Part shown: piece after piece, positions 2,040 through 59,612 of the stretch
How the letters are laid out: every line of letters starts with the position of its first letter
Position numbering within the stretch: the first letter of the stretch is position 1
Source: Brevibacterium epidermidis NBRC 14811
GTDB lineage: Bacteria > Actinomycetota > Actinomycetes > Actinomycetales > Brevibacteriaceae
NCBI RefSeq assembly: GCF_001570805.1
Contig: NZ_BCSJ01000014.1
Span: 1 to 64,000, forward strand
DNA: 64,000 nucleotides
Reading direction: 5' to 3'
Position numbers and translations under genes: made by a program
Notes under the pieces: generated by a model
What the model saw: the letters and a program-made list of their open reading frames with translations, nothing else
Databases searched by the model: none
Told to the model about the DNA's origin: nothing

Positions 2040-5000
2040 TCAGACGCTGAAGCAGCGGGAGCCCAGCAGCGCCTTGAGATCTCCGTAGAGGCTCGGATTC
2101 GGATCGACCCGGATCGACCGATCAAGACGCATCACCGTCTGCCGACCCGGCTGAGACAGGATGATATGGACGTCCGTCTGCCCCTTGTTGGATTCGAGGA
2201 TCCGTTTGAGCTTCGTCGCCATGTCCTCGGTCGCCTTCTCCATCGGCATGATGAGGTTGAGCGGCCGGTCATTGGGGTCGGTGACATCGGGAATCGTCAT
2301 CGACATCGCCATCAGTGAGGTCGGCCGGTCATCGGAGGTGCGGATGCGACCGGTCAGCGAGATCACGAGGTCGGTGGCAAGCAGGCTCGCCACCGGTTCG
2401 TAGGTGTCGCCGAAGAACATCACTTCGATCTCGGCTTCGAGGTCCTCCAAAGTCACGATCGCATAGGGACGACCGGAGTTCTTCGACACCTTGCGGGTGA
2501 CCTGCGTGATCATTCCGCAGACCTTGATCTGGGATCCGTCGTGGCGATGCGATTCCGGATCGACCACCTCGGCGATGGAGGCATCGGATTCCGCGGCCAA
2601 CACACCTTCGAGACCGTTGAGCGGGTGATCAGAGACGTAGAGGCCGATCATGTCGCGCTCGAAAGACAGCTTCTCCTTCTTCTCCCATTCCGGACGGTCG
2701 GGAATGGTCACGGAGAAGCCGGGTGAGTCGTCGTCCCCGCCGAGCCCGGCGAAGAGGTCGAACTGTCCGTTGGCTTCCTGCCTCTTGACGCCGATGACCG
2801 AGTCGACGGCCTCCTCGTGGACTTCGACGAGTGAGCGGCGGCTATGGCCGAGCGAGTCGAAGCCGCCGGCCTTGATGAGCGATTCGATGGTGCGCTTGTT
2901 GCACACGTGGCTGGGCACCTTGTCGAGGAAGTCCGTGAACGAGGTGTAGGCGCCCTTCTCTCCGCGGGCTTCGACGATGCCTTCGACGACATGGGCGCCG
3001 ACGTTGCGGACCGCTCCCATGCCGAAGCGGATATCGGTGCCGACAGGGGTGAAGTGGAGCGCGGATTCGTTGACGTCCGGGGGCAGCACGGTGATGCCGA
3101 GGCGACGGCACTCGTTGAGGTAGATCGCGAGCTTGTCCTTATTGTCACCGACCGAGGTCAGCAGGGCCGCCATGTATTCGGCCGTGTAGTGGGCCTTGAG
3201 GTATGCGGTCCAGTAGGACACGACGCCGTAGGCGGCCGAGTGCGCCTTGTTGAACGCGTAGTCCGAGAACGGCAGCAGGATGTCCCACAGTGCTTGGGCG
3301 GCACCTTCGGAGAAGCCGCGTTCCTTCATTCCGCCGAAGAAGCCGACCTGCTGTTTGTCGAGCTCGGACTTCTTCTTCTTGCCCATCGCACGGCGGAGGA
3401 TGTCGGCTTGGCCGAGGGAGTATCCGGCGACCTTCTGCGCGATCGCCATCACCTGCTCCTGGTAGATGATGAGGCCGTAGGTGGTGTCGAGGATGTCCTT
3501 GAGCGGCTCCTCGAGCTCCGGGTGGATCGGGGTGACCTCTTGGAGCCCGTTCTTGCGCAGCGCATAGTTCGTATGCGAATCTGCACCCATCGGACCGGGC
3601 CGGTAGAGCGCCAGGGTCGCGGAGATATCCTCGAAGTTATCAGGCTTCATCATCCGCAGCAGGGCGCGCAGACCGCCGCCGTCGAGCTGGAACACGCCGA
3701 GGGTGTCACCGCGAGTCAGCAGCTCATACGCCGCCGGATCGTCGAGGCTCAGATGCTCGAGATCGAGATCATAGTCCCGGTTGGCTTTGATGTTCTCCAC
3801 TGCGTCGGAGATGATCGTGAGGTTTCGCAGTCCCAGGAAGTCCATCTTGATGAGCCCGAGGCCCTCAGAGGTCGGATAGTCGAACTGGGTGATGACCTGA
3901 CCGTCCTGGAACCGGCGCATGATCGGGATGACGTCGATGATCGGGTCCGAGGACATGATGACACCGGCGGCGTGGACGCCCCATTGCCGCTTCAGCCCTT
4001 CGAGGCCCTTCGCGGTTTCGAAGGTTTCTCGGGCCTCCGGGTCGGTGTCGACGAGTTCGCGGAACTCGCCGGCTTCCTTATAGCGCTTGGACTGCGTGTC
4101 CTCGATGTCCTTGAGCGGAATGTCCTTGGCCATCTCGGCCGGAGGCAGCGCCTTCGTCAGCCGCTCACCCATCGAGAAGGGTTTGCCGAGCACACGCGCG
4201 GAGTCCTTCAGCGCCATCTTCGTCTTGATCGTGCCGTAGGTGACGATCATCGCGACACGCTCATCGCCGTACTTCTCGGTCACATAGTCGATGACCTCGG
4301 AGCGGCGACGATCATCGAAGTCGACGTCGAAGTCGGGCATGGACACACGGTCCGGGTTGAGGAAGCGCTCGAAGAACAGTCCGTGCTGCAGCGGATCGAG
4401 GTCGGTGATGCGCATCGCGTAGGCGACCATGGAACCGGCACCCGAACCACGGCCGGGTCCGACGCGGATCCCGTTGTCCTTCGACCAGTTGATGAAGTCG
4501 GCGACGACGAGGAAGTAGCCGGGGAAGCCCATCGAGATGATGATGTCGAGCTCGTAGTCGGCTTGCTTGCGGACTTCGTCGGGAACGCCGTTGGGGTAGC
4601 GGTAGTCGAGTCCCTTGGCGACTTCCTTGATCAGCCATGAGGTCTCGTCCTCACCGGGAGGGCACGGGAACTTCGGCATGTAGTTCGCCGAGGTATCGAA
4701 GGAGACTTCGCACTTCTCGGCGATCTCGAGGGTGTTGTCGCAGGCTTCGGGGAATTCCTTGAACAGCGACCGCATCTCTGCGGGCGTCTTGAGGTAGTAG
4801 CCGGAGCCGGAGAAGGCGAACCGCGAACCGCCCTGATCGTAGGTGGGTTCGATGAGTTTGGAACCGGATTGGATGGCCAGCAGCGCTTCGTGCGCCTTCG
4901 CATCCGATTCGTGCGTGTAGTGGAGGTCGTTGGTGGCGACCAGCGGAATGTCGAGTTCCTTCGACAGTCGGATGAGGTCCTTCGTCACCCGCTTCTCGAT

Positions 5001-5597
5001 GGACAGACCGTGGTCCATGAGTTCGACGTAGTAGTTCTCCTTGCCGAAGATCTCACGGTATTTCCCGGCAGCCGCTTTGGCCTCTTCGTACTGCCCCAGA
5101 CGCAGCCGCACCTGAATCTCTCCGGACGGGCAGCCGGTCGTGGCGATGAGTCCCTCGGAATAGCTTTCGAGCAGCTCCTGGTCCAGCCGGGGCCACTTCG
5201 CGGTCACCGAGTCCAGGGAGGCGTAGGAGGAGGCCTTGAACAGGTTCCGCATGCCCGTGTTGTTCCGAGACAGCAGGGTCATATGTGTGTAGAGACCACC
5301 GCCGGAGAGGTCGTCGCTCTTCTGCGATTCGTCGGTACGCCACTTCACGCGCGTCTTGTCCCGACGGTCCGTGCCGGGGGTGACATAGGCTTCGACACCG
5401 ATGATGGGCTTGATTCCGGCGGCGGTCGCCTGGGACCAGAAGTCGAAGGCTCCGAACAGGTATCCGTGGTCGGTCGTGGCGATCGCGGACATTCCCGATG
5501 CCTTCGTCGCGGCCATCAGATCGGCGAGGCGGGCCGCACCGTCCAACATGGAGTATTCGGTATGGACGTGGAGGTGGACGAAGTCCTCATTCGGCAC
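2040..5597 (-). CDS. dnaE: DNA polymerase III subunit alpha
   Basis: This is the 1185-residue replicative polymerase subunit. The PHP domain opens at HVHTEYSMLDG (about residues 9-19). The polymerase aspartates lie in PDFDVDF (about 418-424). The finger and helix-hairpin-helix regions follow, and an OB fold near 1010-1090 contains QIKVCGMITQVTRKVS. The size and domain order are those of DnaE1. The most likely start is GTG at 5597, preceded by GGAAGG, which places the PHP histidines correctly. It lies 128 bases after the pseudouridine synthase stop, and hisD follows 51 bases after it. Confidence 0.98.
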   Translation of the reverse strand: MPNEDFVHLHVHTEYSMLDGAARLADLMAATKASGMSAIATTDHGYLFGAFDFWSQATAAGIKPIIGVEAYVTPGTDRRDKTRVKWRTDESQKSDDLSGGGLYTHMTLLSRNNTGMRNLFKASSYASLDSVTAKWPRLDQELLESYSEGLIATTGCPSGEIQVRLRLGQYEEAKAAAGKYREIFGKENYYVELMDHGLSIEKRVTKDLIRLSKELDIPLVATNDLHYTHESDAKAHEALLAIQSGSKLIEPTYDQGGSRFAFSGSGYYLKTPAEMRSLFKEFPEACDNTLEIAEKCEVSFDTSANYMPKFPCPPGEDETSWLIKEVAKGLDYRYPNGVPDEVRKQADYELDIIISMGFPGYFLVVADFINWSKDNGIRVGPGRGSGAGSMVAYAMRITDLDPLQHGLFFERFLNPDRVSMPDFDVDFDDRRRSEVIDYVTEKYGDERVAMIVTYGTIKTKMALKDSARVLGKPFSMGERLTKALPPAEMAKDIPLKDIEDTQSKRYKEAGEFRELVDTDPEARETFETAKGLEGLKRQWGVHAAGVIMSSDPIIDVIPIMRRFQDGQVITQFDYPTSEGLGLIKMDFLGLRNLTIISDAVENIKANRDYDLDLEHLSLDDPAAYELLTRGDTLGVFQLDGGGLRALLRMMKPDNFEDISATLALYRPGPMGADSHTNYALRKNGLQEVTPIHPELEEPLKDILDTTYGLIIYQEQVMAIAQKVAGYSLGQADILRRAMGKKKKSELDKQQVGFFGGMKERGFSEGAAQALWDILLPFSDYAFNKAHSAAYGVVSYWTAYLKAHYTAEYMAALLTSVGDNKDKLAIYLNECRRLGITVLPPDVNESALHFTPVGTDIRFGMGAVRNVGAHVVEGIVEARGEKGAYTSFTDFLDKVPSHVCNKRTIESLIKAGGFDSLGHSRRSLVEVHEEAVDSVIGVKRQEANGQFDLFAGLGGDDDSPGFSVTIPDRPEWEKKEKLSFERDMIGLYVSDHPLNGLEGVLAAESDASIAEVVDPESHRHDGSQIKVCGMITQVTRKVSKNSGRPYAIVTLEDLEAEIEVMFFGDTYEPVASLLATDLVISLTGRIRTSDDRPTSLMAMSMTIPDVTDPNDRPLNLIMPMEKATEDMATKLKRILESNKGQTDVHIILSQPGRQTVMRLDRSIRVDPNPSLYGDLKALLGSRCFSV

Positions 5598-5725
5598 TGG
5601 GCGCCGCCTTCCTGAAGTTGCCGGTGTTGCCTATCCAGCTTAGTCCATCAGCATCTGAGGAGAGGGGTTTCGGGACTGTTGTTCCCGGCACTTCGGCCCG
5701 GCCCAGACAGCGCCGGGCACCGGGA

Positions 5726-6649
5726 TCAGTTCGGTCGGATGCGGTCGAGCGCGATCTGCAGATCCTCGGGGTAGCCGCTTTCGAATTCAACCCACTTCTG
5801 CGTGTCGGGATGTTGGAAGCCCAGTTTGACGGCGTGCAGCCACTGGCGTTCCAGACCGAGTTCCTTCGCCAGCACCGGATCGGCGCCGTAGGGCAGATCG
5901 CCGACGCAGGGATGTTTGGTGGCGGAGAAGTGGACGCGGATCTGGTGGGTGCGTCCGGTCTCCAGATGAATCTCGACGAGGGCGGCACGACGGTGGGCTT
6001 CGATCACTTCGTAGTGGGTGATCGCGTTCTTGCCTTCGGTGCGCACCGCGTAGAGCCCGTCGTGCTTCGGGTGCCGGGCGATCGGTGCGTCGATGGTGCC
6101 GAGCACAGGATCGGGCAGCCCCTGCACGACCGCGTGGTAGGTCTTCTCGACAGTGCGTTCCTTGAAGGCGCGTTTGAGGACGCTGTAGGCGTATTCGCTC
6201 TTCGCCACGACCATCAGCCCGGAGGTTCCGACGTCGAGGCGCTGCACGATGCCCTGACGTTCGGGGGCGCCGGAGGTCGCGATGCGGAAGCCCGCTGCGG
6301 CGAGTCCGCCGACGACGGTGCGTCCGGTCCAGCCGAGAGCCGGGTGGGCTGCCACGCCGACGGGCTTGTCGACGACGACGAAGGCATCCTCGTCGTGGAC
6401 GATGCGCATTCCCGGCACGGGGTCGGGAACGACCTCGAGCGGCTTCTTGGGTTCGGGCATCATGATGTCCAGTCGTTCGCCGGCGATGACACGATCGGAT
6501 TTGATGACCGGACGCCCGGACATCTCCACTCCCCCGTCGGCGCAGATATCGGCGGCCGCAGTGCGGGAGAGGCCGAGCAGCTTCGACATCGCAGCGTCGA
6601 CGCGCTGGCCGTCGAGTCCTTCGGGGACGAGGATGGAGCGTTCAGTCAT
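5726..6649 (-). CDS. rluD: RluA-family 23S rRNA pseudouridine synthase (RluD type)
   Basis: The 307-residue product has an N-terminal S4 RNA-binding domain (about residues 13-70) and an RluA/RsuA catalytic domain. The catalytic aspartate sits in QRLDVGTSGLM. Most relatives have His where this protein has Gln before RLD, a small deviation that does not touch the catalytic residue. The downstream motif GRTHQIRVH is intact. A GAGGA site lies five bases before the ATG. The start overlaps the end of lspA by eight bases. The lspA-rluD pairing is common in Gram-positive bacteria. The exact uridine targets cannot be read from sequence. Confidence 0.93.
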   Translation of the reverse strand: MTERSILVPEGLDGQRVDAAMSKLLGLSRTAAADICADGGVEMSGRPVIKSDRVIAGERLDIMMPEPKKPLEVVPDPVPGMRIVHDEDAFVVVDKPVGVAAHPALGWTGRTVVGGLAAAGFRIATSGAPERQGIVQRLDVGTSGLMVVAKSEYAYSVLKRAFKERTVEKTYHAVVQGLPDPVLGTIDAPIARHPKHDGLYAVRTEGKNAITHYEVIEAHRRAALVEIHLETGRTHQIRVHFSATKHPCVGDLPYGADPVLAKELGLERQWLHAVKLGFQHPDTQKWVEFESGYPEDLQIALDRIRPN

Positions 6650-7187
6650 AAGAGTCCTCTTTCACACGGGTGGAGTCGGAGCCGTCGATGTCGATGCCTC
6701 TGAGGCTGACGATGACGAGGGTCACTGCGGCTGCAGAGATCGCGATGTCCGCGACGTTGCAGATGAACAGCGACAGATCGATGAAGTCGACGACGGCGCC
6801 GTGCAGAAATGCGGGTTCGCGGAAGAGCCTGTCGACGAGGTTGCCGAAGAGTCCGCCCAGGAGCAGACCGAGCCCGATCGCCCAGGCTCGCGAACCGAGT
6901 TTGCGGGAGATCACGAGGATCGCGACGAAGACTCCGATGGCGATGATCGGGAAGATCCACGTCACGCTCGAGCCGATGCCGAGCGCGGCTCCGGGATTGC
7001 GGTAGAAGGTGAATCCGGCCAGAGAGCCGATCACCGGCACGGGCGGTTGGCCCTCGAGGAGGCTCACGGCGAGGAATTTGGTGAACTGATCGATCACGAC
7101 CACGATTGCCGCGATTGTGAACAGCAGGGCCATCATGGCGGCACGGGGTCTTTTCACCCGTGAGGCAGGATCGTTCATTTGGTTCAT
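6642..7187 (-). CDS. lspA: Lipoprotein signal peptidase (signal peptidase II)
   Basis: LspA is a four-helix membrane aspartyl protease that removes signal peptides from prolipoproteins. The 181-residue sequence shows four hydrophobic segments. The catalytic aspartates are D119 in GNLVDR and D147 in NVADIAI, and the conserved NPGAALG precedes them. The window contains at least two substrates with lipoboxes (34075 and 62187). The start is taken as ATG at 7187. A second in-frame ATG at 7178 is possible, and neither has a strong ribosome site. It is translationally overlapped with the downstream pseudouridine synthase. Confidence 0.97.
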   Translation of the reverse strand: MNQMNDPASRVKRPRAAMMALLFTIAAIVVVIDQFTKFLAVSLLEGQPPVPVIGSLAGFTFYRNPGAALGIGSSVTWIFPIIAIGVFVAILVISRKLGSRAWAIGLGLLLGGLFGNLVDRLFREPAFLHGAVVDFIDLSLFICNVADIAISAAAVTLVIVSLRGIDIDGSDSTRVKEDSYD

Positions 7188-7249
7188 TCTAGACCACAGC
7201 CGAATGGGTCCGACTCAGCCCTGTGCTCGTTCAGCGTGCGAACACGACG

Positions 7250-7283
7250 GAGGCCCGGGTACTCCGAAGAGTTCCCGGACCTC
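7250..7283 (-). terminator. divIVA terminator with UUCG tetraloop
   Basis: Twenty bases beyond the divIVA stop, arms 7250-7264 and 7269-7283 pair over 15 bp with two mismatches. On the minus strand the loop is TTCG closed by C-G, the ultra-stable UUCG tetraloop. No U-tract follows, which is common for actinobacterial terminators. Confidence 0.6.
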
Positions 7284-7302
7284 GGTCGGTGGTACTTGAA
7301 GA

Positions 7303-8109
7303 TCAGAGCTTGTGGTTCGAGGAACCGCCCAGAGGGTTGTTCCCGTCGAGGGTCTCCGGAGCCAGGCTCGTGGAGTTCTCGAGGTCACGCAGCTGATCGT
7401 TGAGGTAGCTCTTGAGTCGAGTGCGGTACTGGCGCTCGAAGTTCGAGAGCTGGTCGATCGAACGCTCGAGGGTCGACTTCTGCGATTCGAGGGTCGACAG
7501 CGTTTCGTCGCGCTTGGTTTCGGCCTTGCCGACGATGTCGGCAGCTTCCTTCTCGGCGCTCTTGATGAGTTCGTCGCGCTTGCGCTCACCTTCAGCAACA
7601 TGCTCGTCGTGGACGCGCTGAGCCAGAGCGATGAGACCATGAGCGTCTCCGTCGCCACCGGCTGCGGCAGCACCGAGACCGGCGCCTGCTGCTCCACCGG
7701 CAGCACCGGCGGCCATCGCGGGTGCGGCAGAGTTGTTGTCCTGCGGAGCGGGAGCGGCTTCCTTGACGACCGGAGCCGGGGTCTCTTCGACCGGTGCCGG
7801 AGCAGCAGGTGCCTCGGCCGGAGCCGCAGCCTCTTCCTTCTCTTCGGGTGCAGGAACTGCGGCGGGCATCGCCTGAGTGGCGTCGATGTCCTGAGCCGGT
7901 GCAGCGGAGGCGCCGCCGGCTTCGAGTTCCTTCACACGCTGTTCGGCGGTGGAGAGCTTCTGACGCAGTTCGTCGTTCTCCTGGTAGAGACGGCGAATCT
8001 CAACGACGACCTCATCAAGGAAATCGTCGACTTCGTCCTGGTCGTACCCGTCGCGGAACTTCACATGCTGGAACCGCTTGTTTACTACGTCTTCAGGCGT
8101 GAGCGCCAT
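7303..8109 (-). CDS. divIVA: DivIVA/Wag31 polar growth protein
   Basis: The 268-residue protein begins with the DivIVA membrane-binding and coiled-coil domain (LTPEDVVNKRFQHVKFRDG, then DQDEVDDFLDE). An Ala/Pro/Glu-rich disordered linker covers about residues 65-155, and a second coiled coil spans about 160-245. In actinobacteria this protein recruits cell-wall synthesis to poles and septum and is often phosphorylated by Ser/Thr kinases. A kinase of that class is encoded at 37609. AGGTGA lies just before the ATG. The 304 bases upstream suggest its own promoter, and a hairpin follows it. Confidence 0.96.
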   Translation of the reverse strand: MALTPEDVVNKRFQHVKFRDGYDQDEVDDFLDEVVVEIRRLYQENDELRQKLSTAEQRVKELEAGGASAAPAQDIDATQAMPAAVPAPEEKEEAAAPAEAPAAPAPVEETPAPVVKEAAPAPQDNNSAAPAMAAGAAGGAAGAGLGAAAAGGDGDAHGLIALAQRVHDEHVAEGERKRDELIKSAEKEAADIVGKAETKRDETLSTLESQKSTLERSIDQLSNFERQYRTRLKSYLNDQLRDLENSTSLAPETLDGNNPLGGSSNHKL

Positions 8110-8282
8110 GAGGTCACCTTCGGTCGATCTACATTCATTACGCTGCCGCCCAGAAGGACGGCTTCAACGTCACATTAGCGTAACACCTGCAGTTTTGTCC
8201 CGCAGTAATGGCGTGTCTCGCATTCAATGACGAAGTTTTACGCATTCGAGGCTAACAACTCGGACAGGCAAACAGCCAATTC

Positions 8283-8300
8283 TGGTGAGCATATTCACCA
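8283..8300. promoter_or_regulatory. Dyad upstream of divIVA, candidate operator
   Basis: TGGTGA-N6-TCACCA is a perfect inverted repeat with 6-bp arms, about 175 bases upstream of the divIVA start in an otherwise non-coding AT-rich stretch. The regulator is unknown. Confidence 0.3.
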
Positions 8301-8374
8301 TTTATCCGGTATTCACTCAATGAAATCCCGCTAATCGGCCGACTCATTATTCAGGCAGATCCCGGCACCCGATC

Positions 8375-8402
8375 ACAGTGATCAGTCAGCCGAGATCACT
8401 GT
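8375..8402 (-). terminator. Hairpin downstream of yggT
   Basis: Arms 8375-8383 (ACAGTGATC) and 8394-8402 (GATCACTGT) form a perfect 9-bp stem with a 10-base loop, starting 12 bases after the yggT stop. There is no T-run. It probably ends the sepF-yggT transcript. Confidence 0.4.
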
Positions 8403-8413
8403 CAGGACGGGGA

Positions 8414-47289: not shown

Positions 47290-48504
47290 TCAGACGAGTT
47301 CGCCGTCGAGGTAGACCGCGTTGACTCGGTTCTCGATTCCGCGGACATCGGCAGTGCGCAGGTCGCCGTCCACGACGACGAGGTCGGCCAGACCGCCCGC
47401 GCCGAGGCGACCGACCCGATCGTCATCGAGCAGGCGAGCCGCCACGGAGGTGCCGGCGGCGAGCGCCTCCGTCGTGGAGAGCCCGACCTCGGCCAACAGG
47501 CTGATCTCTTCGAGGTTCTCCCCGTGTGGGCCGACTCCGGCGTCGGTACCCAGAGCGATCGGGACTCCCGCCTCGTGGGCCCGAGCGATCGACTCCTGGT
47601 GCGCCTCGACGACGCGGCGGGCCTTGTCAACGACTGAGGCGGGCAGTGCGGCGCCGGTGTCGGCGGCTTTGATGACCGCCTGTGGGGCCTGCAGGGTCGG
47701 GACGAGGAAGGTGCCGTGCTCACACATGAGGTCGATGGCCTCGTCGTCGAGATAGATTCCGTGTTCGATCGAGCGCACCCCGGCACGGACGGCGTTCTTG
47801 ATTCCCGGTGCGCCCTGGGCATGGGACATGACGGACGCACCTTGAGCGGCCGCCTCGGCGACGATGACGGCGATCTCGGCTTCGGTGAACTGCGAGTGGC
47901 GCGGGTCATCACGCGGGGAGAGCACTCCCCCGGTCGAGCAGATCTTGATGTGGTCGGCGCCCGCCCGCAGGAGTTCGCGGGCCTTCTTCTGCACCCCTTC
48001 GAGTCCGTCGGCGACTCCCGACGGCCGGCCCGGGTGAGGGGCCAGGAACGGCGATTCGGCTCCGGAGACGAGGTGGAAGTCCCCGTGCCCGCCGGTCTGG
48101 GACATGATGCTGACGGCGATCGTCAGGCGCGGACCGCGCACCACGCCGGTCTCCACTGCCACCTTTGCCCCGAGGTCGGTGCCGCCGGCGTCGCGCACGG
48201 TCGTGACTCCGCCCTTGAGGGTGGCTTCCATATTCGCCACGGAATTATAGAACTGCAGCGAGAACGGATCGTGGAAGTTCGCGGTGGCTGCCGCTCCGGA
48301 GCTCGTGAGGTGGACGTGGCAGTCGATGACTCCGGGAATGATCGTCTTGCCCGTGCAGTCGACGTAGTCGTCCCCGGCGTTGTGTGATCCCTGTCCCCCT
48401 TCGGTCACCGAGGTGATTCGTCCTCCGTCGATGACGACGTCCCGGGTGCCGGGCAGGAAGCGGGTGCCGTCGAAGACGGTGGCGTGGGTGAGAACTGTGA
48501 CCAT
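47290..48504 (-). CDS. Metal-dependent amidohydrolase
   Basis: This 404-residue amidohydrolase-superfamily enzyme has the metal-binding His63-x-His65 in GVIDCHVHLTSSG. It also has Lys in DHIKICSTGG, His in MSHAQG and IEHGIYL, and Asp in ALGTDAGVG. The fold and length match the imidazolonepropionase/Xaa-Pro dipeptidase-like branch. The substrate, probably a cyclic amide or dipeptide, cannot be read. The start is ATG 48504, with GAGGAG seven bases upstream. It is divergent from the large NRPS gene across 245 bases. Confidence 0.9.
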   Translation of the reverse strand: MVTVLTHATVFDGTRFLPGTRDVVIDGGRITSVTEGGQGSHNAGDDYVDCTGKTIIPGVIDCHVHLTSSGAAATANFHDPFSLQFYNSVANMEATLKGGVTTVRDAGGTDLGAKVAVETGVVRGPRLTIAVSIMSQTGGHGDFHLVSGAESPFLAPHPGRPSGVADGLEGVQKKARELLRAGADHIKICSTGGVLSPRDDPRHSQFTEAEIAVIVAEAAAQGASVMSHAQGAPGIKNAVRAGVRSIEHGIYLDDEAIDLMCEHGTFLVPTLQAPQAVIKAADTGAALPASVVDKARRVVEAHQESIARAHEAGVPIALGTDAGVGPHGENLEEISLLAEVGLSTTEALAAGTSVAARLLDDDRVGRLGAGGLADLVVVDGDLRTADVRGIENRVNAVYLDGELV

Positions 48505-48582
48505 GGGCGTGCTCCTCATCGTTGAAAATCAGCTGGTCGACCGCGGACGGCCGTCTACTCACATCTATCACGGACGCCTGAG

Positions 48583-48749: not shown

Positions 48750-51700
48750 GTGAGAGAATACGCACCGCAGTTCCCGTCCCCCGTGCGGCCCCGCGAGGAC
48801 CGCACCCTCATCGACGTCCTCCTCGAGTCGGCCGGCGCCCATCCCGATCAACCGGCCCTCGATGACGGCACTCGGGTGCTCAGCTACGCGGAGCTCATCA
48901 CCGCGATCCGCGATCTCGCGCTGGAGATGGCCGAAGCCGGAATCGGCCCCGGTGACAAGGTCGGCATCCGCGTCCCCTCGGGGTCGGTGGATCTGTACCT
49001 CGCGATCCTGGCCACGCTCATGCTCGGCGCGGCCTACGTTCCCGTCGACGTCGACGACCCGGATGAGCGGGCGCGCACCGTATTCGCCGAGGCGGCCGTG
49101 ACCGGAGTGGTCACCGCCGGACCACACATCGAATCCCGCACCGACCGCGGTCCTCTCGACCGTTCCGAGCTGCGTTCGCCTACCCCCGATGACGACTGCT
49201 GGGTGATCTTCACCTCCGGCTCGACGGGCACTCCGAAAGGCGTGGCCGTCACCCATCGTTCGGCGGCAGCCTTCGTCGACGCCGAGGCGGCCCTGTTCTG
49301 CGTCGAGGAGCCGCTGGGTCCCGGCGATCGCGTCCTGGCCGGACTGTCCGTGGCCTTCGACGCCAGCTGTGAGGAGATGTGGCTGGCCTGGCGGCACGGC
49401 GCGTGCCTCGTCCCTGCCCCGCGTGCACTGGTGAAGTCCGGAATGGATCTGGGACCGTGGCTGTCATCGCGGCAGATCACCGTCGTCTCGACCGTGCCCA
49501 CCCTGGCCGCACTGTGGCCGGCGGAGAGCCTCGACAATGTCCGCCTCCTCATCTTCGGCGGTGAGGCCTGCCCGCCCGAGCTCGGACGTCGGCTCAGCGA
49601 CGACGACCGTGAAGTGTGGAACACCTACGGCCCCACCGAGGCGACCGTCGTCGCCTGCGCGGCCATGCTCGACGGGTCCGAGCCGGTGCGCATCGGCCTG
49701 CCGCTCAAGGGCTGGGATCTGGCCGTCGTCGATGCCGAGGGCGTACCCGTCGCCGAGGGCGAGACCGGCGAGCTCATCATCGGCGGAGTCGGACTGGCCC
49801 GCTACCTCGATGCTGCCAAGGACGCCGAGAAGTTCGCCCCCATGCCGAGTCTCGGCTGGGACCGGGGGTACCGGTCCGGCGACCTCGTCGTCAACGATCC
49901 GGCCGGGCTCATCTTCGTCGGTCGTGCCGATGAGCAGATCAAACTCGGAGGCCGACGCATCGAACTCGGCGAGATCGACGCTGCCCTGCAGGCCCTGCCC
50001 GGTGTCGAAGGCGCTGCGGCCGCGGTGAAGAAGACGGCGGCCGGCACGGACGTCCTCATCGGCTACCTCGCCCCCGGTGCCGGTTCCGGCGAGGCCGACC
50101 TTCCCGACTGGGAGGCCCGGCTGCGTGACGAACTGCCGGCCGCACTCGTTCCCCGTCTGGCCCTCGTCGATGACCTGCCCACGAAGACCTCCGGCAAGGT
50201 CGACCGCAATGCCCTGCGGTGGCCGCTCGATGACGGCGCCGAGGCGGCCGGATCCGATGAGGTCTTCGACGAGGACGTGGAGTGGGTCGCCGAGCAGTGG
50301 GCCGCGGTCCTCGGTGCCCGACCGGGAAGCGATACGGACTTCTTCACCGCCGGCGGTGGTTCGCTGGGCGCCGCACAGCTCGTCTCCCGACTGCGCACCC
50401 GCCATCCCAGCGTCACCGTCGGCGACATCTACGCGCATCCGCGCTTCGGCGCCCTGTCCAGGCTCTGCCACGGCGAGGAAGGGGCCGGAATCGGACCGGC
50501 AGGTCCGAAGCGGACGATCACACGGACCTCCCGGGGCATGCAGGCCTTCCAGGTGCTGCTCGGAATTCCGGTGCACATCCTCGGCGGGGTCCGATGGGTC
50601 GTACTGGCGATGCTCGCGGCCAATATCGGGGTCGGTCTCGGCGCGGACCTGCCCTTCACACCGTGGCCGGTGCTTATCGTCCTCTTCCTCGTCTTCGTCA
50701 CCGCGTGGGGGCGGATGCTCATCTCCGCGGGTGCGGCACGCCTGCTCATGATCGGGATCCGGCCCGGGGTCTATCCGCGATCCGGGTGGGTGCATAAACG
50801 GCTGTGGCTGGCCGAACACATCGCCGACATCGCCGCTGCGGTCTCGGTGGCGAGCGCACCCTGGGTGACCTGGTATGCGAAGCTGCTGGGCAATCGGATC
50901 GGCAGCGACGCCGATCTGCACTCAGTGCCCCCGGTGACCGGTTTCCTCACCCTCGGCGAGGGCGCTGCAGTCGAACCCGAAGTCGATCTCAAGGGCTGGT
51001 GGGTCGACGGCGACCTGCTGCGCATCGGACGCATCGACATCAGCCGCAACGCCACGATCGGTGCCCGGTCGACGCTCATGCCCGGCGCCGAGGTGGGGAT
51101 CGGAGCTCTCGTCGAAGCCGGATCCGCGGTGACCGGTCGGGTGCGGAAGAACCAGATCTATTCAGGTTCGCCTGCGGTGCGGGTCGGGAAGGCGAAGAAG
51201 TCCTGGCCGGCTCCCCCGCCCAGGCGGCGTCTGCCTTTCCTGTTCTACGCCGTCGGCTCCCAGATCAATGCGCTGCTGCCGTATCTTGCGGTAGTGCCAG
51301 GCTTCGCGATCATGCTCGGGGTCTCCGGGATCGAGGTTCTCGAGTCTCCCTGGCTGCTGGTGGCATGGTCCCCCGTGGTCGCCTGCCTGTGGTTCCTCAC
51401 CACCGCCCTACTCATCCTTGTGTCCGTGCGGATTCTGGCGATCGGCATGGAAGAGGGTGAGTTCCCCGTTCGTTCGGCTCGCGGATATCGGGTGTGGGCG
51501 ACGGAGCGTCTGCTCGACATGGCCCGGGATCTGCTGTTCCCCCTCTATGCGTCGATGCTCACCCCGTGGTGGCTGCGCCTCCTCGGTGCAAAGGTGGGGC
51601 CGGGTACGGAGATCTCGACCGTCGTCTTCGTGCCCAAGATGACGACGATCGCGGCCGGTGCCTTCCTCGCCGATGACACCATGGTCGCCAGCTACGAACT

Positions 51701-52772
51701 CGGGCACGGCTGGATGCGCGCCGGGCGAGCGAAGGTCGGCAAACGCGCCTTCCTCGGCAACTCGGGAATCGCATCCCCTGGTCGCAGGGTGCCGAAGAAT
51801 TCCCTCGTCGCGGTGCTCTCAGCGGCGCCGGCGAAGGCGAAGAAGGGATCGTCGTGGCTCGGCTCTCCCCCGGTGCAGCTGCGTCGCGCCGCTGTGGAAT
51901 CCGACGAGTCACTCACCTATGCTCCGACCTTCGGGGTCAAGGCCGCTCGTGCCTTCTGGGAGACGCTGCGGATCTCGTCGATCATCGCCGGCGGCGTGCT
52001 CATCACCGGAGTCGTCCTCACCATCTGGTTCTTCCTCGGCCTGCCGGGCGGGGTGGCCGCGCAGTCGACGACGTTCTTCGCTTCGGTCCTGTTGGCCCTG
52101 CTTACTTCGGGGATCGTGATGATGGCCGCCGGTGCTGTGGCAGCGGGATTGGCCGTGGCGGCGAAATGGATCCTCGCCGGTCCCATCCGACCCGGGGAGC
52201 ATCCTCTGTGGTCGTCATTCATCTGGCGCAACGAGGTCGCCGACTGCTTCGTCGAACTCGTGGCCGCTCCCTGGTTCGCCCGGAACGCCGTGGGCACGCC
52301 TGCGATCGTGTGGTACCTGCGGGCGATGGGCGCGAAGATCGGCCACGGAGTGTGGTGCGAGAGCTACTGGCTGCCGGAGGCCGACCTCGTCCGCCTCGGC
52401 GACAATTCGACGGTCAACCGCGGCTGTGTGGTCCAGACTCACCTGTTCCATGATCGGGTGATGAGTCTCGATACAGTGCAGCTCGATCCTGGTGCCACTT
52501 TGGGGCCCAACAGCGTCATCCTCCCGGCTTCCACGCTGGGTGAGAACGCCACGGTGGGAGCGACGTCTCTGGTCATGCGCGGAGAGTTCGTGCCGGCCCA
52601 TGCCTACTTCAGCGGCAATCCTGTCATACCCTGGGTGGATGCCCCAGAACTTCCCGCACTCAGCGAAGAAGGCCGAGAAGACGTCGGTCGCGAAGAAGCA
52701 GGCCGAGACGACGTCGGTCACAACGGCTCAGACCCCGACGACGGAGAACGATCGGGCCGATCGCATGCTTGA
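48750..52772 (+). CDS. Pls/PosA-type membrane non-ribosomal peptide synthetase
   Basis: The 1340-residue protein has one adenylation domain (about residues 15-500: FTSGSTGTPKGV, FDASCEEMW at 203-211, NTYGPTEATV) and one carrier domain with phosphopantetheine Ser538 in GGGSLGA. The rest is membrane segments (about 605-660, 835-910, 1075-1145) alternating with three left-handed beta-helix-like regions (about 725-815, 940-1030, 1190-1297). There is no condensation or thioesterase domain. This is the layout of epsilon-poly-L-lysine synthetase (Pls) and relatives, which make isopeptide-linked homopolymers. The amino acid used is not assigned. The start is GTG 48750. The C-terminus overlaps the aminopeptidase gene by eight bases. 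Confidence 0.9.
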   Translation: MREYAPQFPSPVRPREDRTLIDVLLESAGAHPDQPALDDGTRVLSYAELITAIRDLALEMAEAGIGPGDKVGIRVPSGSVDLYLAILATLMLGAAYVPVDVDDPDERARTVFAEAAVTGVVTAGPHIESRTDRGPLDRSELRSPTPDDDCWVIFTSGSTGTPKGVAVTHRSAAAFVDAEAALFCVEEPLGPGDRVLAGLSVAFDASCEEMWLAWRHGACLVPAPRALVKSGMDLGPWLSSRQITVVSTVPTLAALWPAESLDNVRLLIFGGEACPPELGRRLSDDDREVWNTYGPTEATVVACAAMLDGSEPVRIGLPLKGWDLAVVDAEGVPVAEGETGELIIGGVGLARYLDAAKDAEKFAPMPSLGWDRGYRSGDLVVNDPAGLIFVGRADEQIKLGGRRIELGEIDAALQALPGVEGAAAAVKKTAAGTDVLIGYLAPGAGSGEADLPDWEARLRDELPAALVPRLALVDDLPTKTSGKVDRNALRWPLDDGAEAAGSDEVFDEDVEWVAEQWAAVLGARPGSDTDFFTAGGGSLGAAQLVSRLRTRHPSVTVGDIYAHPRFGALSRLCHGEEGAGIGPAGPKRTITRTSRGMQAFQVLLGIPVHILGGVRWVVLAMLAANIGVGLGADLPFTPWPVLIVLFLVFVTAWGRMLISAGAARLLMIGIRPGVYPRSGWVHKRLWLAEHIADIAAAVSVASAPWVTWYAKLLGNRIGSDADLHSVPPVTGFLTLGEGAAVEPEVDLKGWWVDGDLLRIGRIDISRNATIGARSTLMPGAEVGIGALVEAGSAVTGRVRKNQIYSGSPAVRVGKAKKSWPAPPPRRRLPFLFYAVGSQINALLPYLAVVPGFAIMLGVSGIEVLESPWLLVAWSPVVACLWFLTTALLILVSVRILAIGMEEGEFPVRSARGYRVWATERLLDMARDLLFPLYASMLTPWWLRLLGAKVGPGTEISTVVFVPKMTTIAAGAFLADDTMVASYELGHGWMRAGRAKVGKRAFLGNSGIASPGRRVPKNSLVAVLSAAPAKAKKGSSWLGSPPVQLRRAAVESDESLTYAPTFGVKAARAFWETLRISSIIAGGVLITGVVLTIWFFLGLPGGVAAQSTTFFASVLLALLTSGIVMMAAGAVAAGLAVAAKWILAGPIRPGEHPLWSSFIWRNEVADCFVELVAAPWFARNAVGTPAIVWYLRAMGAKIGHGVWCESYWLPEADLVRLGDNSTVNRGCVVQTHLFHDRVMSLDTVQLDPGATLGPNSVILPASTLGENATVGATSLVMRGEFVPAHAYFSGNPVIPWVDAPELPALSEEGREDVGREEAGRDDVGHNGSDPDDGERSGRSHA

Positions 52773-54219
52773 TACCTATACACAGGGTGTCGGCAACGCG
52801 GACCTTCATATCGACCATTACGATCTCGACCTCGACTACCGGATCGGTCCGAACCGACTCTCGGCCAGGGCGGTGCTCAAGGGGCGGGTGCTCACAGACA
52901 CCTCATCGATCGTCCTCGACCTCACAGGTCTGCGGGTGACGAAGGCCAGCGTCAACGGCAAGAAGGTCCGTTTCTCCGCTCGAGGGAAGAAGCTGCGGCT
53001 GACGACCCCGGTGCTGAAGAGCAACCAGCCGGTGGTCATCGACATCAGCTATACGGGCAATCCGGAACCGGCGATCGGCACGTGGGGCGACATCGGCTGG
53101 GAGGAGCTCGAAGACGGGGTGCTCGTGGCTGGACAGCCCGTCGGTGCCTCGACCTGGTTCCCGTGCAACGACCACCCCTCGAACAAATCCCAGTACAGGA
53201 TCTCCGTGCTCGTCGAGTCCGAGTACACGGTGGTGTCCAACGGGAGCCTGACGAAGAAGACGCGCAAGGCCGGGCGGACCCGCTGGACCTATGAGTCATC
53301 GACTCCCCTGGCGACTTACCTGGCGACGGTGCAGATCGGCCGCTACAAGTACGGGCAGATCCCTCTGAGTTCCGGAGCCACGCGGTTCGGTGCTGCGATG
53401 CTCGGCGCGGCGAAGGACGCGGTTGCGGGTTCGGCCCGGGACGCGCTGTCGAGCGCCGCTCGAGGAGTCGCCAGCGCTGCCGGCAAGGACGTGTCCGTTC
53501 ACGATTCGTCGGGCAGGCGCACGACGCACAGCCGGACCGAATCTTCCGTTCCCCTCGGCGTCTATGCCGACGATCATTGGGATGTGGCGGTCGAGCGCCT
53601 CGGTATCCAGCACGGAATGATGAACCTGTTCATCGAACGCTTCGGGCCCTACCCGTTCGACGTCTACGACGTGGTCGTGACCGATGACGTTCTCGAGATT
53701 CCGCTCGAGTCGCAGCCACTGTCCGTGCTCGGGCCCAATCATCTGGGTCCCGAGTGGGAGGCCGAGCGCCTCGTCGCACACGAGATGGCGCACCAATGGT
53801 TCGGAAACTCGCTCACGCCTTCGCGGTGGAGGGACATCTGGCTCAACGAGGGCTTCGCCTGCTACGCCGAGTGGCTGTGGTCGGAGGAGTCCGGCCGCGC
53901 GAGTGCCGACGAGCGCGCGCGGCAGTGGTGGGACGATCTGTCTGCCCAGCCGCAGGACATCATGCTCGGCGATCCGGGCGGGCCGAACATGTTCGACGAC
54001 CGCGTGTACAAGCGCGGTGCACTGTGCCTGCATGCCCTGCGCCTCGAGCTCGGCGATGAGGACTTCTTCGCGGCCGTCGCCGAATGGACGAAGCGGTACC
54101 GTCATTCCTCGGTGAGCACAGAGGAGTTCATCCGCTGCGTCTCCGACGTGGCAGAACGTGACATCGCCGAGGTGGTCCGTCCTTGGCTCGAGGAGTTGGA
54201 ACTCCCGCCGCTTAAGTAA
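52765..54219 (+). CDS. M1 family zinc aminopeptidase
   Basis: The 484-residue M1 peptidase has HEMAH (His339, His343) and the third zinc ligand Glu362 eighteen residues on. The usual GAMEN region reads LEIPLESQ. About residues 205-255 are an Ala/Gly/Ser-rich amphipathic insertion (FGAAMLGAAKDAVAGSARDA) absent from many relatives. No signal peptide is visible. I chose ATG 52765, whose sequence LDTYTQGVGN fits the family start. An ATG at 52639 would add 42 Lys/Thr/Gln-rich residues inside the NRPS gene. The overlap suggests co-expression with the synthetase. Confidence 0.93.
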   Translation: MLDTYTQGVGNADLHIDHYDLDLDYRIGPNRLSARAVLKGRVLTDTSSIVLDLTGLRVTKASVNGKKVRFSARGKKLRLTTPVLKSNQPVVIDISYTGNPEPAIGTWGDIGWEELEDGVLVAGQPVGASTWFPCNDHPSNKSQYRISVLVESEYTVVSNGSLTKKTRKAGRTRWTYESSTPLATYLATVQIGRYKYGQIPLSSGATRFGAAMLGAAKDAVAGSARDALSSAARGVASAAGKDVSVHDSSGRRTTHSRTESSVPLGVYADDHWDVAVERLGIQHGMMNLFIERFGPYPFDVYDVVVTDDVLEIPLESQPLSVLGPNHLGPEWEAERLVAHEMAHQWFGNSLTPSRWRDIWLNEGFACYAEWLWSEESGRASADERARQWWDDLSAQPQDIMLGDPGGPNMFDDRVYKRGALCLHALRLELGDEDFFAAVAEWTKRYRHSSVSTEEFIRCVSDVAERDIAEVVRPWLEELELPPLK

Positions 54220-56717: not shown

Positions 56718-59612
56718 ATGAAGAACATCGGAGACAACGACGGACGGGAATTCGGCCTGCCCACCGCTCCCCCTGCGGAGGCAGACCACCGGGCTCTGTC
56801 GAAGTTCCGCCGGGCCCACGGACGTCGTCTGGAGATCGCCGAAGACAATGAGCTCGTCGACCTGCTGGGTGTCTATGCTCAGAGCAGCCTCGCCCAGATC
56901 AATTCTTTCATCGCCACGAGTGAAGTCGTGGCTCAGGACGTCGCTTACGCTCTCGGGCTCTTGGGCAGTCAGCCCGACTCGGTCTTTGAGTTCGCGTCAT
57001 TCACCAGGACTGCGGCACGCTATCGTCTGCCCGTGGGCAAGCGAGCCACAGTTGCCCTCAACAGCAACGACTGCGTTGTCGACGTTCCTGCCGACGACGT
57101 GTTCTCCCCGCTCAGAACTTGGACCCGCAGAGAGACACTTGCGTGGACACAGGCTGTGGCCCAGGTCGAAGCCGAAATCGGGACGAAAGTCGGCGCAATC
57201 ACAGGACGGAAGAAGAACCGTGCCACCGGCCGTCAACACCGTCGAGTGCGGAAGTTGGCCAAGGAGTTCCTGATCAACCCCGCACTCTTACCTGACTTTC
57301 CCGGTTACGATCCGAAGCTGACCTTCTTCACGTGGCTGCGCGGCAATATCGAACCGACCGAGGCCGGCGTCTATTCGAGTCTTCTGGGCGCGACGACGAG
57401 CAACTCGCTCAGACACATGACTTCATCGATGACGCTAGTGCACGGACTTCCGCGGTTCCTCAAGCGATGCTTGGATGGAGACTTCACGATCGAACACGTC
57501 GATTGTGTCACTCGTGCGTGTCGTGACCTGCACTTCGAGCATCTGCCGGAATTCGATGACTACCTCGCCCGCCGGCGCGCTGACATCACGATCGAGACGT
57601 TCAAGCGATCGGTCGCTCTGAAGATCGCAGTCATTCAACCGGCCGAGGACACTCTGAAGAGTGTTTCACTGCGTCGTCGGGTCGACTTCAGCACCGGCGA
57701 CGACGGAACCGCCTACCTCACACTGACCGGGCCCGCACCTGAGCTTCAAGCCTGCTACAGAAGGCTCGACGCCTTTGCCCGAGCGGTTCATAAGAGCAAT
57801 ACGAGCGCGTTCTCGGATCAGCTGAAGGCAGGAGAATGCTTCGATGAGGAGCGTTCGGTCTCAGCCCTGATGTTCGACATACTCACGCGCACGCGTCCAC
57901 AGATCAAGCTGCGTATCATCAGCACAAACGAGGCCGACAACACGTCGACGAGCACCGATTTCCCTCTCGATGGGCTCTTCGCCGGACCCGACGGCGTCCC
58001 CATGCAGGAAGGTGAGGCGCTGCTCGACTACATCGAGCGAGTGTTCGACGACATGGACACGAACGGCCACGCAGGACCGACACAGTCAGAGCCAGCCAGC
58101 TCGGAAGCGTCCGCGCAGTGTGACTCCGGCCGCCGGGCATCCGCACCGGAAGAAGAGCCCAGCCGCCCTGCGAACACCACTCCAGCTGACCGCATCTTCG
58201 AATCCCAGCTGCTCGAGGCCATCCTCAGCAGCAACAACACCACGGATCAAGACACGGCAGAAGCGCTCGAGGCGCTCATCGGCTCACGTGCCAGCGGAGC
58301 TCGCCCCGCATCCGAGGGATCCGAAGCTGCCGCGTCCGGTGGTGTCGATGCATTCGGCAGTCCCATCCTCGATGCCGGCGAGCGCCGCATCAGCTTTGAG
58401 TTCCTCCTCGATATGCCGACCAACGAGTATTGGTTGGCGAATCAGGCCAGCACCTTCATCACCGTTCCTCTGCTTACTCTGCTCAGCCAATTCCACTCGG
58501 ATGACGACGGTTCGCCGCCACCAACCCTTGAGCCGTCGAGTCCACAGCCGCCCTCCGTCGATCCCCTAAATCCGCCACCACCGACTACCGGTCCCCCAGA
58601 CCCGCCGCCTCCCGACGAACCGCCAACGTCAACACTCTCAACCACGCCGGCACCACCTGACGGACCAACATCATCGCAAGTCTCGACGCCAGCACCATCG
58701 GAGGTACCTCTGACTTCAGGAGAGGTGTGCGATCTGGCGGGCATGCTTCCAAACGGGTCACCGATCCCAGCCGAAATGGCACGACGGGTCGCCGGGTACT
58801 CCACCACCTGGACCAGGCTGCTGACCGATCCGGCAACTGGAACACCTGTTGATGCGAAGGCAACGTCCTATGCAATACCGAACAGCGTGCGCAAAACACT
58901 TGTCGCTCAATTCATGACCTGCACCTTCCCGGGATGTACTCAACCCGCTGAGGTGACAGAGGTCGATCATATTGACCCGTTCAATCACTCCGACCCGACT
59001 CAGGGCGGTCTCACTCGCTTCGGAAATCTCCATTGTCTGTGCAAGGCCCACCATCTGCAGAAGACCAACGGCAATTTCGACGTGCGGATGGCCGAACCCG
59101 GCCACCTGGAGTACGTGTTCCGCAAGGGTGTCACTGCAGAGGTCGTCTCGCCGGATAACCCCATCAGCATTGAGCATGCTCGGCTGTTCCTCGAACGATT
59201 CGGCGCTAGACTCCCCCGAACGGGTCGAGCAGTCACATCGGAACAGGCAAACATCGAGGATCCACTTGCCGACGAGAGTGTTCCAGCCACCGAGCATCAA
59301 TCTGATGCCGAGGGCGATCCTGATGTTGAGCGTCAATCTGACTCTGAAACGGCGTCTGCCCACAACAGCGGCGATCCAAACGTGAAACACCCCGTTCCCG
59401 GTGATCGGAAGCAGGCACAGGAATGCCCGGAACCAGCCGCGACCGACCGTAGCCCAGGCTGGAGAGAGTTCATTGCCAACGACCCCTATGCGTTCGCACC
59501 CAAGACTGCGCCGCGCAGTGCCGACGAAGCATCTGGCACCGCACGGTCAGGCAAGGATGACGCAGAGCTGCGCAACTGGTTCTGGGACTCCGGCGAGCCT
59601 CCGCCGTTCTGA
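56718..59612 (+). CDS. DUF222 and HNH endonuclease domain protein (13E12 type)
   Basis: The 964-residue protein has an N-terminal and central DUF222-type helical region and a C-terminal HNH nuclease domain (about residues 733-790). That domain contains CTFPGCTQPAEVTEVDHIDPF, HCLCKAHH and QKTNGNF, with paired Cys as in zinc-stabilised HNH folds. A Pro/Thr/Ser-rich linker (about 600-680) and a polar tail make it about twice the usual length. These proteins are multicopy in many actinobacteria (13E12 repeats). Their role is unproven, and mobile or defence functions have been suggested. A long hairpin follows the stop. Confidence 0.9.
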   Translation: MKNIGDNDGREFGLPTAPPAEADHRALSKFRRAHGRRLEIAEDNELVDLLGVYAQSSLAQINSFIATSEVVAQDVAYALGLLGSQPDSVFEFASFTRTAARYRLPVGKRATVALNSNDCVVDVPADDVFSPLRTWTRRETLAWTQAVAQVEAEIGTKVGAITGRKKNRATGRQHRRVRKLAKEFLINPALLPDFPGYDPKLTFFTWLRGNIEPTEAGVYSSLLGATTSNSLRHMTSSMTLVHGLPRFLKRCLDGDFTIEHVDCVTRACRDLHFEHLPEFDDYLARRRADITIETFKRSVALKIAVIQPAEDTLKSVSLRRRVDFSTGDDGTAYLTLTGPAPELQACYRRLDAFARAVHKSNTSAFSDQLKAGECFDEERSVSALMFDILTRTRPQIKLRIISTNEADNTSTSTDFPLDGLFAGPDGVPMQEGEALLDYIERVFDDMDTNGHAGPTQSEPASSEASAQCDSGRRASAPEEEPSRPANTTPADRIFESQLLEAILSSNNTTDQDTAEALEALIGSRASGARPASEGSEAAASGGVDAFGSPILDAGERRISFEFLLDMPTNEYWLANQASTFITVPLLTLLSQFHSDDDGSPPPTLEPSSPQPPSVDPLNPPPPTTGPPDPPPPDEPPTSTLSTTPAPPDGPTSSQVSTPAPSEVPLTSGEVCDLAGMLPNGSPIPAEMARRVAGYSTTWTRLLTDPATGTPVDAKATSYAIPNSVRKTLVAQFMTCTFPGCTQPAEVTEVDHIDPFNHSDPTQGGLTRFGNLHCLCKAHHLQKTNGNFDVRMAEPGHLEYVFRKGVTAEVVSPDNPISIEHARLFLERFGARLPRTGRAVTSEQANIEDPLADESVPATEHQSDAEGDPDVERQSDSETASAHNSGDPNVKHPVPGDRKQAQECPEPAATDRSPGWREFIANDPYAFAPKTAPRSADEASGTARSGKDDAELRNWFWDSGEPPPF

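Follow-up and report, generated by a model that had tools for sequence, protein, structure and literature searches.

We analysed a 64,000-nucleotide stretch of the Brevibacterium epidermidis NBRC 14811 genome, hereafter the window, in which a long synthetase gene runs directly into the gene of a zinc peptidase. The features of the locus are as follows.

47290-48519, minus strand: amidohydrolase, like the Xaa-Pro dipeptidase model NF051886 but below its cut-off
48750-52772, plus strand: pls, predicted epsilon-poly-L-lysine synthetase (1340 aa, GTG start)
48798-50231, plus strand: adenylation (A) domain of the synthetase (residues 17-494)
50280-50465, plus strand: thiolation (carrier) domain (residues 511-572; PF00550, 1.8e-8)
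50547-52625, plus strand: terminal membrane region with three tandem domains (residues 600-1292)
52765-52772, plus strand: eight-base overlap between pls and the M1 peptidase gene
52765-54219, plus strand: M1-family zinc aminopeptidase (484 aa; PF01433 and PF17900), predicted PldII counterpart
53779-53850, plus strand: zinc site HEMAH-x18-E of the M1 peptidase

Architecture of the synthetase and its partner

The synthetase reading frame opens at a GTG that is the earliest in-frame start. Family models place an AMP-binding match at residues 26-351, followed by the carrier domain and by a tail that matches the TIGR02353 'Pls/PosA family NRPS' terminal domain over its full length (positions 2-695 of 695) and scores 638 bits where the cut-off is 423. 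As in the Pls layout, condensation and thioesterase domains are absent and the terminal region stands in for both. A hydropathy scan located three hydrophobic clusters between soluble parts of the protein (residues about 602-663, 838-901 and 1072-1144), and together with weak hexapeptide-repeat matches at residues 766-795 and 1247-1275 these indicate that the beta-helix-like regions correspond to the acetyltransferase-like domains C1-C3 known from Pls. An earlier sequence-only reading of this DNA had proposed a single-module A-T-membrane enzyme with the layout of epsilon-poly-lysine synthetase and three beta-helix-like regions; the AMP-binding, PP-binding and TIGR02353 matches bear out the first proposal, and the three clusters and hexapeptide matches bear out the second. 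The genome (3.7 Mb in 25 contigs) encodes one full copy of the synthetase. Its nearest named relative is that of Brevibacterium iodinum (96% identity), with 69-83% identity in other Brevibacterium and about 55-64% in Arthrobacter, Kocuria, Nocardia, Rhodococcus and others.

The peptidase gene starts at the ATG at 52765 and not at the mechanical open reading frame start at 52492, and since the pls stop codon occupies 52770-52772 the two genes overlap by exactly eight bases, as the sequence-only reading had stated. This arrangement makes translational coupling likely. The peptidase combines N-terminal and catalytic M1 domains with an HEXXH-x18-E site, the composition expected of a PldII enzyme, and hydropathy analysis revealed no transmembrane stretch in it. 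Of 130 partner peptidases, 129 carry the HEMAH-x18-E motif, and the one without it belongs to a truncated locus. Residues about 203-258 (window 53370-53540) form an insertion of about 45-55 residues, rich in Ala, Gly and Ser, that is kept in the closest Brevibacterium relatives, shorter in locus L016 and absent from most other lineages.

The amidohydrolase gene upstream is indeed divergent from pls, as noted in the earlier reading, and this neighbourhood does not extend beyond one lineage comprising part of Brevibacterium; no locus from another genus contains the gene. We rejected the amidohydrolase as a component of the system because it accompanies only a subset of Brevibacterium loci. Elsewhere in the window (56718-59612, plus strand), a protein of 964 aa weakly matches an HNH endonuclease model at residues 739-784, contains a Pro-rich linker and resembles the common actinobacterial HNH repeat family.

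Pocket code and predicted product

Epsilon-poly-lysine is a natural antimicrobial and a food preservative. Comparison of the synthetase with solved structures returned the A domain of an epsilon-poly-L-lysine synthase, 7wew_A, as the top match (E 1e-189), with ordinary NRPSs as the next class far below, and the window A domain shares 68% identity with 7wew across 467 aligned residues. We located the ten specificity positions through the PheA core motifs and their numbering and read a pocket code of DAESIGTVVK, the lysine code of 7wew at all ten positions. The same code occurs in 128 of 135 homologous loci; the other seven are three divergent Pls copies described below and four extraction failures (L069, L080, L081 and L125), whose blank codes we took as frameshifted or mis-anchored open reading frames and left uncounted.

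Within the Pls/PosA family, Ala at pocket position 2 denotes lysine, Met denotes ornithine and Phe denotes diaminobutyrate or diaminopropionate (PMC10522769), and the window enzyme carries Ala and not the Met of the PosA ornithine code. The delta-poly-L-ornithine synthetase PosA of Acinetobacter baumannii belongs to the same A-T-membrane family but has a differing code, DMEHNGTVSK, and an A domain 36% identical to that of Pls, and the text of the PosA paper mentions no peptidase (PMC10522769). The differing pocket code excludes PosA as the closest kin of the window synthetase, and the earlier label 'Pls/PosA-like' is narrowed to its Pls half.

Operons of this kind have been characterized in two other genera. 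In Streptomyces albulus, pls and pldII overlap by 4 bp within a single operon and PldII acts as the principal epsilon-poly-lysine-degrading enzyme (PMC4361855), the two genes being translationally coupled (PMC9223678). Corynebacterium variabile harbors the same pls-peptidase operon and its Pls yielded epsilon-poly-lysine in Streptomyces coelicolor, and in the same 2021 study 14 of 15 Brevibacterium isolates of cheese and skin origin carried pls (PMC8117764). The product had been described as unassigned in this lineage; it is assignable to epsilon-poly-lysine because the code is identical to that of 7wew, because both the operon and what it makes have been published in S. albulus and C. variabile, and because Brevibacterium has already been surveyed for pls (PMC8117764, PMC4361855). 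From these published homologues, we infer epsilon-poly-L-lysine as the product of the window synthetase.

Conservation of the pls-M1 pairing

As stand-ins for the S. albulus sequence we used near-albulus Streptomyces genomes with a Pls A domain 94% identical to 7wew. Against these relatives, the full window Pls is about 51% identical, and the M1 peptidase has 37-38% identity along its length to the gene downstream of pls (E 1e-90 or better), establishing homology between the window peptidase and the pls-adjacent Streptomyces gene, the counterpart of PldII. The window locus shares with S. albulus pls-pldII the domain layout, lysine code, gene order, overlapping genes and M1 zinc partner, and differs from it in having an 8-base instead of a 4-base overlap, an insertion in the peptidase and an amidohydrolase upstream.

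The sequence-only reading had suggested comparing gene order in related genomes, and this comparison placed an M1 gene downstream of pls in 80 of 80 named loci and in 29 of 29 loci from relatives that have a near Pls. We also drew 148 genomes from across the class and scored them with a 200-bit threshold for the M1 subfamily; pls occurred in 25 of these genomes and was adjoined by the M1 gene in 23; in the remaining two, the M1 gene lies on another contig (G193) or a partial pls match lacks an M1 partner (G079). None of the 123 genomes without pls encodes an M1 gene of the pls-partner subfamily, the best M1 scores being at least 206 bits beside pls versus at most 157 bits in genomes without it (Fisher p about 6e-25 for the association across the 148 genomes, with no correction for relatedness). 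The commonest junctions are overlaps of 4 bases (34 loci), 1 base (19 loci) and 8 bases (17 Brevibacterium loci), counts that leave out a few implausible spacings (-653 to -1424 bases) taken as frameshifted or mis-anchored open reading frames. Gaps of 0.6-2.2 kb separate pls from the M1 gene in two Tsukamurella loci (of three, two measured) and two Williamsia loci (L117, L123, L101 and L107). The window pls gene lies in an operon with a PldII-type M1 peptidase, as is characteristic of Pls, and the gene pair is ordinary for Brevibacterium and widespread in actinobacteria.

Divergent Pls types

Three of 57 Brevibacterium genomes (G030, G019 and G604) encode a divergent Pls that is 45-48% identical to the window enzyme.

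L148, 4382-10118, plus strand: divergent Pls locus, code DAESIGTVIK
L149, about 2729-8409, minus strand: divergent Pls locus, code DAESIGSVIK
L183: divergent Pls locus

Directly after the divergent Pls comes a membrane acyltransferase (HGSNAT_cat, with DUF418 also matched in one) and no M1 peptidase. These acyltransferases are 43-45% identical to each other and, among the 57 genomes, are confined to the same three, always beside the divergent Pls. Such a pair may produce an N-acylated (lysine) polymer, and it constitutes the one fresh lead, outside the window operon. Locus L150 (G045) holds a distant Pls relative (32-34% identity) that has no M1 partner and a code, DFEYNGTVTK, resembling those of diaminobutyrate and diaminopropionate enzymes.

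Discussion

The locus is very probably the pls-pldII operon of Brevibacterium, dedicated to making and then cutting epsilon-poly-L-lysine, as indicated by the observed domain layout, lysine code identity, zinc site, gene overlap and conserved pairing. Given the reports on S. albulus, C. variabile and Brevibacterium, the window pair is a member of a known operon in a surveyed genus, already described in kind and predictable in product. It is the same operon, in the same kind of host, as that of C. variabile and of the cheese and skin Brevibacterium isolates, with the difference that for C. variabile heterologous expression has proven the product to be epsilon-poly-lysine (PMC8117764).

By analogy with the published homologues, the A domain would activate L-lysine and load the neighboring carrier domain, and the membrane-embedded three-domain tail would link lysines via the epsilon-amino group into epsilon-poly-L-lysine, which would be exported as it is by the enzyme of Streptomyces. 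The M1 peptidase, likely coupled in translation to the synthetase, would then cut the polymer, probably for self-protection and turnover. Degradation of the product by the peptidase, previously raised as a possibility, can be judged likely from the role of PldII in the S. albulus pls operon; activity of the window peptidase on the polymer is not guaranteed, because it shares only 37-38% identity with the corresponding Streptomyces enzyme and contains an insertion, specific to its lineage, of about 45-55 residues.

Cultures of C. variabile itself contained no detectable polymer in the tested conditions and its Pls was not detected by proteomics (PMC8117764), indicating that the operon may be silent, or may serve in conditions other than those tried. 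These observations would also suit a silent or decayed relic, with intact genes out of use, a reading that we consider unlikely given the full-length open frame, intact zinc motif and recognised carrier domain in the window and the 94-97% protein identity among close species. There is a slim chance that Brevibacterium makes a lysine isopeptide polymer differing from Streptomyces epsilon-poly-lysine in length or modification, and that its length is set by the insertion-bearing peptidase. It is highly improbable that the synthetase instead makes poly-ornithine, poly-diaminobutyrate, poly-diaminopropionate or poly-beta-lysine: the enzymes for all of these cationic homopolymers fall in one family, TIGR02353, and one PosA pocket residue shifts chain-length preference (PMC10522769), but position 2 of the window code is Ala and not Met or Phe (PMC10522769), all ten positions equal those of 7wew, and only lysine-type enzymes have the peptidase partner (PMC8117764). 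That the M1 enzyme is a housekeeping aminopeptidase adjoining pls by chance is scarcely credible, for although M1 is a general family and PepN-type models match weakly, this subfamily occurs only with pls and its overlap with or tight spacing to pls is kept across the class.

For the pls-pldII operon, pairing of synthetase and peptidase is near-universal among lysine-type Pls across the sampled actinobacteria, which fits a role in self-protection or turnover. The product prediction is settled for the window gene pair, and it bears on whether epsilon-poly-lysine really arises in cheese or on skin, a question already posed in 2021.
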